This document shows, piece after piece, positions 60,811 to 64,000 of a stretch of DNA of 64,000 nucleotides. Below the pieces are notes generated by a model. That model worked only from the letters and a program-made list of their open reading frames with translations, was not told the DNA's origin and did not search any database. Source of the stretch: Dokdonella sp. (GTDB lineage Bacteria; Pseudomonadota; Gammaproteobacteria; Xanthomonadales; Rhodanobacteraceae). The translations under genes and the position numbers were made by a program. The stretch is from the NCBI GenBank assembly GCA_019634795.1, contig JAHCAR010000002.1:226628-290627 (forward strand), in the 5' to 3' direction. How positions within the stretch are numbered: position 1 is the first letter of the stretch; every line of letters starts with the position of its first letter.

Positions 60811-61172
60811 GGGACCCGGCATCGACCAGGGGACTCGGCGACGGCCACGCCGTTGATCCGGCGCGACAGGGCCCTGCGAACTTGTCCGTCCAGCCGTCAC
60901 AGTCGTTCCAACCTCAGCGTCATCCCGGCGCAGGCCGGGATCCAGCGCCTTGAGCGCACATTGGAATCAAGCTTCAGTCCCCCGGCCTCGTTGGCCGTAT
61001 CCACGAGCTGCCGGCGAATCCTGCGCCTCATGGCAATTCTGACTGGAAACTGAATACGCCCTTCGAAGCCCTTGACTCTGGACCATGGTCCAGGGTGCAT
61101 GCTGGTCACCTCGGATCCCGCATCGAACCCCCTCGGGCTCACGGATCCGCTTCAAGACGATCGGAGGGCACC
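60811..61172. other. 362-bp gap after lolA with one common inverted repeat and the merR promoter
   Basis: No gene is seen. At 60922-60941 ATCCCGGC pairs with GCCGGGAT around GCAG, within the widespread GTCATCCCGGCGCAGGCC-type genomic repeat followed by GATCCAGCGCC. The right part (from about 61070) holds the MerR-type promoter listed separately. The lolA terminator was not identified. Confidence 0.55.
61072..61102 (+). promoter_or_regulatory. MerR-type metal-responsive promoter with dyad operator
   Basis: TTGACT at 61072-61077 and GCATGC at 61097-61102 are separated by 19 bp, the over-long spacer used by MerR-family activators. The spacer contains a perfect palindrome CTGGACCATGGTCCAG (61078-61093), extended to about 22 bp of near-symmetry (ACTCTGGACC/GGTCCAGGGT). 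It lies about 70 bp upstream of the merR start, so it probably drives the whole merR-membrane protein-ATPase operon. Confidence 0.82.
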
Positions 61173-61580
61173 ATGACCCAGTTTGCCATCGGCCAACTCG
61201 CCAGCGCCGCCGGCGTCGGCATCGACACGGTCCGCTACTACGAGCGCAGCGGCCTGCTCAAGCCGGCCAAACGTTCGGCTTCGGGCTACCGGAAGTACGG
61301 TGAAGGCGAACTTGACCGCCTGAACTTCATCCGTCGTGCCCAGCACCTCGGTTTCAGCCTCGGCGAAATCGGCGAGTTGCTCGCGATCAGCAGCCGCGGC
61401 GACGTCAAGGCCATGTACCAGGCGGCCAAGGTCCGCCTCGACGACATCGACAAACGCATCAACGAACTGCATCGCATGCGCGACGCGCTGGCCAACCTGA
61501 TGTCGGGTTGTCCGCGCGAAGGCATGGATGTGGATTGCCCCATCCTGCGTGCATTGCTCCACAAGGAGGCTAGCCAATGA
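61173..61580 (+). CDS. MerR-family metal-responsive regulator (CueR-like)
   Basis: A 135-residue MerR protein. The winged HTH spans IGQLASAAGVGIDTVRYYER and the following SGLLKPAKRSASGYRKY. A dimerisation helix follows (about 75-110), then a metal-binding loop with C113 and C122 in SGCPREGMDVDCPIL. This C-P-x(7)-C-P loop is close to CueR, with one extra residue, and the position where zinc and mercury sensors carry a helix cysteine has none. A copper or silver sensor is favoured. The ATG at 61173 follows GGAGGG. The stop overlaps the next start (ATGA). Confidence 0.9.
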   Translation: MTQFAIGQLASAAGVGIDTVRYYERSGLLKPAKRSASGYRKYGEGELDRLNFIRRAQHLGFSLGEIGELLAISSRGDVKAMYQAAKVRLDDIDKRINELHRMRDALANLMSGCPREGMDVDCPILRALLHKEASQ

Positions 61581-62239
61581 AACCCGTGAATGCCCTGCAA
61601 AAAGCCGAAGACGTGTCGCGCGAAGCCAGCCGCATGTGCTGCCTGACCCGCGTCAATTCGCTGCTAAAGTCCCTGCGCATCAAACACGACCGTGCCGGTG
61701 CCGTGCAGCAACCCGGGACGTCGCCCGACGGACATGACGACGATGGCGTGCATGCACCAACGCCGCACGACGAATTCGTCAGCGAACTCGAAGCCGCCGT
61801 TGCGATCGGCAGCTTTGCCCGCCTGCAGCGCGACACCCTGGTCGCCTTCGACAGTGCGCGCGAACTCGCCCGCGCCAAACTCGTATTCGCGGCGAGCCTG
61901 GTGGTGCCGCTGGTGCTGGTCGCCGCCGCGCTGAGCCTGTTCGGCGCGCAGCTCGATCGCGCGGCGACCGCGCTGTTGCAGTTCTCGGCACTGGCCCTGG
62001 CCACGCCGCTGATCTTCGCCCTGGCGAAAACCGCTGTGCGCAGTGGCTGGCAGGGCATCCGCCAGCATCCGTGGCTGGCCCTGCTCGGCGCTGCCGCGGC
62101 CGGGGGCTATGCGAGCAGCGCCTTGGCGATGTCCGGGGCGGTCAGTGCGACCGCGTCGGCGTTGACGCTCTCGGTGGCGGGCCTGCTGGTAATGGCCGTG
62201 CAACTCGGTCACTGGTGGTTGCTGCGCCGGGCGGCCTGA
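61577..62239 (+). CDS. Membrane protein homologous to the first four helices of a P1B ATPase
   Basis: A 220-residue protein. Residues 1-90 are soluble, with a CC pair (C21, C22) and a His/Asp-rich stretch (HDDDGVHAPTPHDE), plausible metal ligands. From residue 95 it aligns without gaps, offset 40, to the downstream ATPase: P111 to P144 here against P151 to P184 there, both ending ATPL(I/V)F, then GWQGIR against GWKGVR. The final helix (GLLVMAVQLGHWWLLRR) matches the ATPase's [17 protein letters not shown]. The actuator, CPC and DKTGT parts are absent. It overlaps merR by 4 bp and ends 6 bp before the ATPase. Function unknown. Confidence 0.85.
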   Translation: MKPVNALQKAEDVSREASRMCCLTRVNSLLKSLRIKHDRAGAVQQPGTSPDGHDDDGVHAPTPHDEFVSELEAAVAIGSFARLQRDTLVAFDSARELARAKLVFAASLVVPLVLVAAALSLFGAQLDRAATALLQFSALALATPLIFALAKTAVRSGWQGIRQHPWLALLGAAAAGGYASSALAMSGAVSATASALTLSVAGLLVMAVQLGHWWLLRRAA

Positions 62240-62245
62240 CCCGCC

Positions 62246-64000
62246 ATGCACGAACCCTCCAAGCACCACACGGACGGCTGCAGGCATTGCCATGCGCCCG
62301 ACGAGCCGGTCGACCCGGCACGCAAGGCGCATGGCAGGGACGCTGCCGCGCCGTCGATCGACCCCGTCTGCGGAATGTCGGTCGATCCGCTCACGGCAAA
62401 GCACGTCGCCGAACACGCGGGCGAGACGTTTCACTTCTGTTCGGCCGGATGCCGGCAGAAGTTCGTCGCCGACCCCGGCAAATACCTGAACCCGGCAAAG
62501 GCCGAACCCGCGTCCGTCGTGGACACGGACGTGATCTACACCTGCCCGATGCATCCCGAGATCCGCCAGCGCGGACCGGGCAGCTGTCCCAAGTGCGGCA
62601 TGGCGCTCGAGCCGCTGATTCCGACCGGGGCGGAGGACGATGGCGAACTGAAGGCGGTGCGGCGCAAGTTCCTGATCGCGGCGGTGCTGGCAATCCCGCT
62701 GTTGCTGATCGCCATGGGGCCGCATCTGCTCGGCCTGCATTTCGATGCCGGTATATCGACGATCGTGCGCTGGTCCGAATTCGTGCTGGCGACGCCGCTG
62801 GTTTTCTGGCTGGGTGCCGCCTACTACGTGCGCGGTTGGAAGGGAGTGCGAGCCGGATCGCCCAACATGTACAGCCTGATCGGCCTTGGTGTGCTCGTGG
62901 CCTATGCGTTCAGCCTCGCTGCGTTGTTCGCACCCAAGGTGTTCCCGCCGACGATGCGCGATGCGCACGGCGACGTGCCGTTCTACTTCGAGGCATCCGG
63001 CGTGATCATCGCCCTCGTGTTGCTTGGCGAGTGGCTAGAGCTGCGCGCACGCGGCAAGACTTCGGCCGCGATTCGCGGACTGCTCGAACTCGCGCCGAAA
63101 ACCGCGCGTCGCGTCGGTGAGGATGGCAGCGAGGATGAGGTCTCGCTCGACCAGGTCGAGGCCGGCGATCGGCTTCGCATACGGCCTGGCGAGAAGATTC
63201 CGGTCGACGGCAAGGTCGAGGACGGCAGCAGCAGCGTCGATGAATCGATGCTCAGCGGCGAGCCGATCGCGGTTGGCAAGAAGGCCGGCGACGCGGTGAC
63301 CGGCGGCACCATCAACGGCACCGGCAGTCTGCTCATGCGCGCCGAGAAAGTCGGCAACGAAACGGTGTTGGCGCAGATCGTCGACATGGTGGCCAAGGCA
63401 CAACGTTCGAAGGCTCCGTTGCAGCGACTGGCCGATCGGGTATCGATCTGGTTCGTACCGGCGGTCGTGGCGGTTTCCGTTCTCGCTTTCGGAGTCTGGT
63501 TCGCGTTCGGGCCCGAGCCGCGGCTGGCCCATGCGATCGTCAACGCGGTCGCCGTGCTCATCATCGCCTGTCCGTGTGCGCTCGGCCTGGCCACGCCGAT
63601 TTCGATCATGGTCGCCAGCGGGCGTGGTGCCGGCATGGGTGTATTGTTCCGCGAAGCGGCGGCGATCGAGGGCCTCAGCCATGTCGACACGCTCGTGCTC
63701 GACAAGACCGGCACGATCACCGAGGGCAAGCCGCGCCTGACCGACGTGGTCGCCGCCGATGGTTTCGATGAAAACGATGTGCTGGCCATGGCCGCGAGTC
63801 TCGAGGCCGCCAGCGAGCATCCGCTGGCCCATGCCGTCCTGGAAGGCGCCAAGGCGCGCCAGGTTGCCGTCCGCACGACCCGCGGTTTCGATTCGGTGAC
63901 CGGCGAAGGGGTCCGCGGCGAAGTCGATGGCAGGAAGGTCGCGCTGGGCAACGCGAAGCTGATGGCCAGCTACACGGTTCCCGAGGCGCTGGCGGGCAGG
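62246..64000 (+). CDS. copA: Copper-type P1B ATPase (CopA-like), cut by the right edge
   Basis: The first 585 residues of a metal-exporting P-type ATPase. The N-terminus has Cys/His clusters, a YHS-type domain (DPVCGMSV near 39-46, HFCSAGC at 63-69), and a heavy-metal-binding YTCPMHPEI...[12 protein letters not shown] domain (98-123), instead of classic HMA domains. Then come membrane helices, the LSGEP actuator motif, the transport motif CPC in [12 protein letters not shown], the phospho-acceptor DKTGT, and [12 protein letters not shown] predicts Cu(I)/Ag(I) export. The ATG at 62246 follows the small membrane protein by 6 bp. The ATP-binding end lies outside the window. Confidence 0.93.

Follow-up and report, generated by a model that had tools for sequence, protein, structure and literature searches.

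A small Dokdonella membrane protein sharing the MA-MB hairpin of P1B-1 ATPases, encoded behind a MerR-type operator

Genes and operator of the merR locus

The window (the whole 64,000-nucleotide stretch of Dokdonella sp. DNA that was analyzed, labeled G000 among the genomes) closes with a run of genes that a reading of the frames gives as ftsK, a lolA-like gene, merR (61173-61580), a small gene named P0001 (61577-62239), and a YHS-HMBD P1B ATPase gene from 62246 onward. The features are as follows.

61072..61103, + strand: MerR-family operator-promoter before merR, with TTGACT and a long spacer holding the dyad CTGGACCATGGTCCAG; near-identical in all six species with the small gene
61173..61580, + strand: merR-family regulator, 135 aa; Pfam MerR_1 (5.2e-18) and MerR-DNA-bind (1.5e-16), best NCBIfam model TIGR02051 MerR
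61577..62239, + strand: small gene P0001, 220 aa, a soluble N-terminus with apparently pump-derived membrane helices; from the open reading frame, blastp, orthologues, and selection
61577..61849, + strand: N-terminal soluble region of P0001, residues 1-91; from the family alignment and a class search
61850..62056, + strand: MA-MB hairpin of P0001, residues 92-160, homologous by sequence to the first two P1B helices; in 6/6 orthologues
62057..62236, + strand: two more hydrophobic helices of P0001, residues 161-220, possibly M1-M2; weak match, and 4/6 orthologues are without them
62246..64000, + strand: YHS-HMBD P1B-1 ATPase (LpCopA-like), first 585 residues; Pfam YHS, HMBD, and E1-E2_ATPase, and a 10-residue motif
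62639..63046, + strand: ATPase residues 132-267 (MA, MB, M1, and M2), matched by P0001 in the blastp alignment

The merR stop overlaps the P0001 start as ATGA, an overlap of 4 bp that is found in all six small-gene species, and the ATPase start lies 6 bp past the P0001 stop in the window. The ATPase gene is cut by the contig end, and thus only its first 585 residues are visible; its orthologue in D. immobilis, the closest named relative at the locus in a contig-level scan reaching close relatives only, scores 799 bits against LpCopA (PDB 3rfu). Genome G059 is taken as D. immobilis, and the other genomes with the small gene are G110, G073, G086, and G131. The window MerR scored 124 bits with the MerR model of NCBIfam (cut-off for TIGR02051, 150.85), 108 with ZntR, 101 with CueR, and 74 with CadR-PbrR, all below the cut-offs of the models, so the family assignment gives no metal for this regulator.

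A near-identical TTGACTCTGGACCAnnGTCCAG element was aligned upstream of merR in all six small-gene species, including those with no ATPase behind the small gene, and it probably binds the MerR of the window. The operator pattern was matched at G000:C12:287699-287720 and was present in 12 of 14 genomes with no more than two mismatches, while the reversed control pattern gave 0 matches; the G030 operator was taken from this pattern scan and not from the alignment. Two extra copies are located in G073 directly upstream of other P1B pump genes (L133 7824 and L134 9343), and both are one mismatch from the search pattern. In G086 (contig 1, 260100-260700), a MerR-type operator stands ahead of a P1B ATPase gene cut down to its YHS-HMBD N-terminus (189-aa open frame), and the printed stretch of this remnant looks identical to the G073 ATPase gene with an open frame (L134 9343).

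A preliminary description of this DNA had regarded the small gene as translationally coupled to both of its neighbors. The overlap with merR is present in every species, and the ATPase is indeed close by in the window, but an ATPase gene adjoins the small gene in only four of the six species. The locus pumps of G059, G086, and G131 are 81, 73, and 71% identical to the window ATPase, and the distance from the small gene to the pump, which includes a dispersed repeat, is about 230 bp in G086 and about 190 bp in G131. In G073 and G110, where the best pumps elsewhere in the genome are 54% and 57% identical to the window ATPase, the ATPase is missing from the locus and the other parts are kept; the constant unit is thus merR, its operator, and the small gene. 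The ATPase has presumably been lost at the locus in these two species. The CGTCATnCCGGCGCAnGCCGGnATCC repeat is intergenic at the locus in three genomes, near 60918-60943 in the window and between the small gene and the ATPase in L025 and L027.

Relation of the small protein to P1B pump helices

Residues 92-217 of P0001 align with residues 132-267 of the adjacent ATPase at 29% identity in a single blastp comparison (E = 2e-12). The preliminary description had given this alignment as gapless over about 90 residues at an offset of 40; the alignment is real, but its gapless stretch covers the first 71 residues (92-162). Three other likenesses that it pointed out are present, namely, the spacing of P111 and P144 against P151 and P184, ATPL(I/V)F, and GWQGIR against GWKGVR (GW(Q/K)G(I/V)R), and the match does end just before the actuator domain of the ATPase, which begins at residue 281.

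The hairpin scored 116 against the ATPase, compared with a mean of 36.6 (sd 6.2) for local shuffles, of which 0/1000 were as high. Against the window ATPase, the numbers of shuffles out of 2000 that scored as high as each of the six hairpins were 0 (window), 0 (G059), 14 (G110), 35 (G073), 0 (G086), and 0 (G131), a modest similarity for the G110 and G073 copies. An hhalign comparison of the P0001 family with 32 ATPases, the HMM-HMM check that had been proposed, placed residues 92-155 on MA-MB (E 1.6e-5, probability 79%). A profile of 19 YHS/HMBD ATPases (search size 1000) gave E values of 8e-9 and 2e-6 for the two long forms of the protein and 0.018 to 2.6 for the four short ones; the short forms are clearly related to the long ones, and the MA-MB homology is on this ground extended to them. 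A reverse search with the MA-M2 region of the pump found P0001 at 1.5e-8, and nearly all others among the matches listed were frames of P1B size. For each of the six hairpins, the best-scoring ATPase was of the downstream type, and their mean score was higher with 13 ATPases of this type than with the 19 remaining P1B pumps; both results are partly biased, since part of the 13 were fetched because P0001 matched them. Judged by these sequence comparisons, the MA-MB hairpin of P0001 is homologous to P1B-1 ATPases, including CopA/LpCopA (3rfu), and in two species the homology perhaps includes M1-M2.

The claim that P0001 consists of the first four helices of a P1B ATPase is only partly supported, because the match of the last two is weak. 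Their score was reached by 81/1000 shuffles against the neighbor ATPase and by 1/1000 against the G086 pump, which was the best of 32; the corresponding numbers for the D. immobilis copy were 78/1000 and 6/1000. The C-terminal parts alone were insignificant against the 19-ATPase profile (E 7.7 and 28). Within the putative M1-M2 region, compared with the pump motifs SPNM and LGExLELRA, the Asn-Met of the first is opposite a gap and the LGE Glu of the second is replaced by His; the Glu matching E205 is replaced by Leu, and these helices are altogether absent from four of the six orthologues.

P1B-1 pumps have YHS/HMBD, actuator, phosphorylation, and nucleotide domains and a CPC motif, whereas the small protein is without all of these and keeps neither the MB glycines nor the Met of M1. 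An alignment via the D. immobilis pump and LpCopA shows the MB glycines replaced by Ala and Lys/Arg, E189 by Ser, and E205 by Leu. The actuator domain, DKTGT site, and CPC motif are absent from the 220 residues of P0001, and Pfam gave no E1-E2_ATPase or Hydrolase match. With the catalytic domains and residues of the metal-entry path missing, the small protein is not a transporter.

The N-terminal region has one invariant Cys (C21) and a conserved P-x3-D-x4-ELEA-x-V motif in the family alignment. A second Cys lies within three residues of C21 in five of the six members, G110 has Cys also at 52, 55, and 58, and there are several His; with a single Cys invariant, metal binding by the small protein is uncertain. 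The preliminary description had called this region unrelated to the pump, in agreement with a YHS/HMBD origin being rejected here, as the score of the first 90 residues against the neighbor ATPase is no higher than that of shuffles (611/1000 are as high). With the best-scoring of 32 pumps, the number was 19/1000, which is unconvincing for a pick out of 32. An HMA origin, considered on account of a C-x-x-R-V-x-x-x-L pattern, was likewise rejected (hhalign against the HMA domains of the fetched ATPases, probability 0.2%). No convincing relative of the region was found outside the genus among 369 class genomes, with up to 14 candidates per genome scored among the matches listed; the search returned the small gene itself and two weak matches, at E = 0.005 (with stops inside) and 0.007, that were taken as chance.

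The AlphaFold model built from the family alignment alone was poor (pLDDT 52.6). Adding ATPase rows gave a fair value of 72.9 for an alignment of 18 rows, which includes 12 ATPase fragments and thus leans to the pump by construction. Foldseek with the 18-row model found no P1B ATPase in the best 50 of 82 matches and none at E <= 0.001, and the prediction for the N-terminal region, as for the whole protein, is all-helical at low confidence. The modeling that had been suggested as a check gives no support for the relation to the pump.

Distribution, selection, and origin

The small gene is present in 6 of 10 genus genomes. The preliminary description had proposed looking for it in other Xanthomonadales, and none was found outside Dokdonella among 197 family genomes and 398 order genomes, in searches that scored 9 candidates per genome among the matches listed for the order (up to 14 for the class) and that could miss distant copies. 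The protein search of the family genomes gave 14 with a match, of which six hold the small gene, and the other frames are of ATPase size (492-933 aa). The profile search of the order genomes found it in G000, G059, G073, and G086 and otherwise matched ATPase-size frames; G110 and G131 do not figure in its matches, probably since the genomes sampled did not include them. A plasmid search returned no relative of P0001, and a scan of genome contigs that reaches close relatives only returned one, in D. immobilis. When the MA-M2 region of the pump was searched against 151 order genomes, 122 had a match, and the frames below 400 aa among the matches listed were P0001 (as a 221-aa frame) and two from G214 (306 and 310 aa). 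The latter were rejected as stand-alone fragments, being parts of ATPase genes whose reading frame is broken; two P1B ATPase genes of G214 (L141 and L142) have such a break within or after the first membrane helices.

That no family of this shape is known to have been described, as the preliminary description put it, agrees with our searches: there was no convincing Pfam match in the six members, no NCBIfam match in the three members scanned, and no occurrence beyond the genus among the genomes searched. A PDB sequence search with P0001 gave no match, and beta-lactamase matches in the PDB with the family query (E 0.07-0.4) were rejected. No description of a stand-alone P1B helix protein was found in the literature searched, which covered few subscription journals.

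The orthologues are 220, 222, 160, 172, 156, and 156 aa long. The four short forms (156-172 aa) end soon after MB and thus consist of the soluble N-terminus and MA-MB, and M1-M2-like helices are confined to the window species and D. immobilis. Invariant in the family are C21, P61, D65, ELEA (70-73), V75, D92, ELA (96-98), F104, P111, LL (133-134), S137, and PL (144-145).

All six copies are intact, with no stops or frameshifts, as the preliminary description had held for the window copy, and two species pairs display purifying selection. Between the window and D. immobilis there are 60.0 synonymous and 51.0 nonsynonymous differences over 179.3 and 480.7 sites (pN/pS 0.317; Fisher 3e-11), and between G086 and G131 there are 24.0 and 19.0 over 124.0 and 344.0 sites (pN/pS 0.285; Fisher 2e-5). 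The differences fall on the three codon positions as 30/23/58 and 11/10/22, respectively. The Nei-Gojobori omega of the small gene is 0.252 in the first pair and 0.256 in the second. The ATPases have 0.221 and 0.208 in these pairs, merR has 0.037 and 0.103, and ftsK has 0.071. By part, the omega of the window pair is lowest in residues 61-92 (0.02), highest in residues 1-60 (0.47), and 0.19 in residues 158-220. The small gene behaves as a functioning protein gene under a constraint similar to that on the pump and weaker than that on merR. Pseudogene-like fragments and the absence of any profile relation to ATPases had been named beforehand as outcomes that speak against the idea, and neither was found: the pN/pS values of 0.32 and 0.29 are not near 1, and the relation is evident in both the profile and the shuffle tests.

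A tree of FtsK from 10 genomes (of 12, leaving out G099, where FtsK is split, and G083, where it has a stop inside) placed the six small-gene species into one clade (support, 98/96), within which the long forms and the short forms can each be explained by a single change, at lower support. In G030, G004, and G099, merR lies directly before the ATPase with no space for the small gene, and G121 has neither the merR-ATPase arrangement nor the small gene. The ATPase and ftsK matches of G099 (contig 1, 1676844-1678702 and 726322-728639) are each split over two frames, perhaps by sequencing errors. The simplest account of the origin is a single partial duplication of the downstream pump gene in the ancestor of the six species, by which MA-MB would have been joined to a new N-terminus.

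Proposed function and alternatives

Several known systems invite comparison. MerT, MerC, and MerF are small membrane mercury transporters of mer operons under MerR control; P0001 differs from them in that its family has no Pfam match to them and its helices contain no Cys and match P1B pumps. In Escherichia coli, CopA(Z) is a truncated N-terminal copA product, an HMA domain that the pump gene yields by frameshifting. P0001 likewise corresponds to the N-terminal part of a copper pump standing on its own, but it is encoded by a separate gene and has membrane helices and no HMA domain.

In role, P0001 comes closest to PacL and CupA, to which it has no sequence relation. PacL proteins are presented in PMC9374683 and PMC13043812 as small membrane proteins that gather and stabilize P1B pumps and act for more than a single pump. 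Mycobacterial PacL (DUF1490) resembles P0001 in being small, membrane-bound, and partly cytosolic and in having its gene next to that of a P1B ATPase (in 4/6 species for P0001), and PacL1 is described as somewhat similar to the unfolded metal-binding part and first helix of ZiaA (PMC9374683). Unlike P0001, the PacL/DUF1490 family is described as exclusive to Actinobacteria, and no DUF1490 match at E <= 10 was obtained for any of the six P0001 members with HMMER, whose filters drop most weak matches. CupA of Streptococcus pneumoniae is likewise a small membrane-associated protein in an operon with a metal regulator and CopA (PMC5646241); by description it has a cupredoxin fold with a leader sequence, whereas P0001 is without such a Pfam match and is predicted, at low confidence, to be helical. 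As far as these searches go, P0001 represents a new protein family; its role is probably a variation on that of known small membrane proteins that partner P1B pumps.

We tentatively favor, as plausible rather than established, that the small protein derives from the pump and serves as an accessory membrane protein in a metal-efflux response controlled by MerR (probably to copper-type metals), pairing with P1B pumps. Metal would activate MerR, and the small protein would be made together with, or without, the pump and inserted with its N-terminus in the cytosol. The copied hairpin could then place it beside P1B pumps, stabilizing or clustering them; alternatively, it may hold the Cys-bearing N-terminal domain near the metal-entry or cytosolic face of the pumps. 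Its role would resemble that of PacL for mycobacterial P1B pumps and that of CupA for pneumococcal CopA. An obligate subunit role for the neighboring ATPase is unlikely because this ATPase is not adjacent in two of the six species, and action on more than one pump would explain why the small gene is retained there. It is conceivable, if somewhat doubtful, that the free-standing hairpin packs as a regulatory or scaffold subunit on P1B pumps generally, including those encoded elsewhere, so that what it really works with is the metal regulon rather than the neighbor pump. If true, this would be a de novo subunit in an otherwise single-chain pump family.

The cysteines could instead be read as those of a membrane-tethered metal buffer or chaperone, whose N-terminal domain binds metal for delivery to MerR or any pump and whose hairpin is only an anchor. 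The invariant C21, the second Cys of five members, the extra Cys of G110, and the several His fit this role, as does the precedent of CupA, a copper chaperone with a membrane leader sequence in an operon with the repressor CopY and CopA (PMC5646241). We nevertheless consider it unlikely, since no known metal-binding domain was recognized (no convincing Pfam match in six members, no NCBIfam match in three scanned, and 0.2% for HMA) and a mere anchor need not stay MA-MB-like.

A negative regulator, in which the copied hairpin competes with the pump MA-MB for packing or for a cytosolic copper chaperone and so dampens efflux, appears quite improbable. A basic segment follows MB in all six members (3, 3, 4, 8, 3, and 3 Lys plus Arg within at most 30 residues after the MB Pro-Leu in the window, G059, G110, G073, G086, and G131), which recalls MB', an electropositive platform proposed as the place where CopZ docks or is recruited (PMC9433437), and P1B pumps have been proposed to be autoinhibited via their N-terminal part (PMC11970713). 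However, the positive-inside rule also accounts for the basic segment, an operon with the pump points to help rather than hindrance, and the presence of the gene in species with no neighbor pump is hard to account for.

Distinctly improbable, too, is that the small gene is a relic, a drifting partial duplicate retained for linking the translation of merR to that of the pump gene. Its restriction to one genus, its variable C-terminal helices, its lower constraint than that of merR and ftsK, and the start of the window pump 6 bp after its stop with no Shine-Dalgarno sequence seen would all suit a relic, but a pN/pS of about 0.3 in two species pairs, the intactness of every copy, its retention in two species with no ATPase behind it, and the gaps to the pump in G086 and G131 would not. 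Finally, convergence of hydrophobic sequence, favored by the inflation of scores by hydrophobic helices and by the lack of a P1B match in the best 50 of 82 Foldseek matches, is hardly credible given that local-composition shuffles miss the score of the long copies and that the reverse search recovered P0001 at 1.5e-8.

The reach of an accessory protein of this kind is limited, as the family is small and comprises six genomes. To our knowledge, the role of the extra helices MA and MB of P1B pumps, whether as a docking platform or in regulation, is not settled. A natural protein that is almost only MA-MB, kept by selection and preceded by the operator of a metal regulator, would allow the abilities of the isolated hairpin to be tested directly, be it binding to pumps, binding to chaperones, or a part in metal sensing, and within one genus it provides a case of a single-chain transporter perhaps gaining an accessory protein from its own gene.
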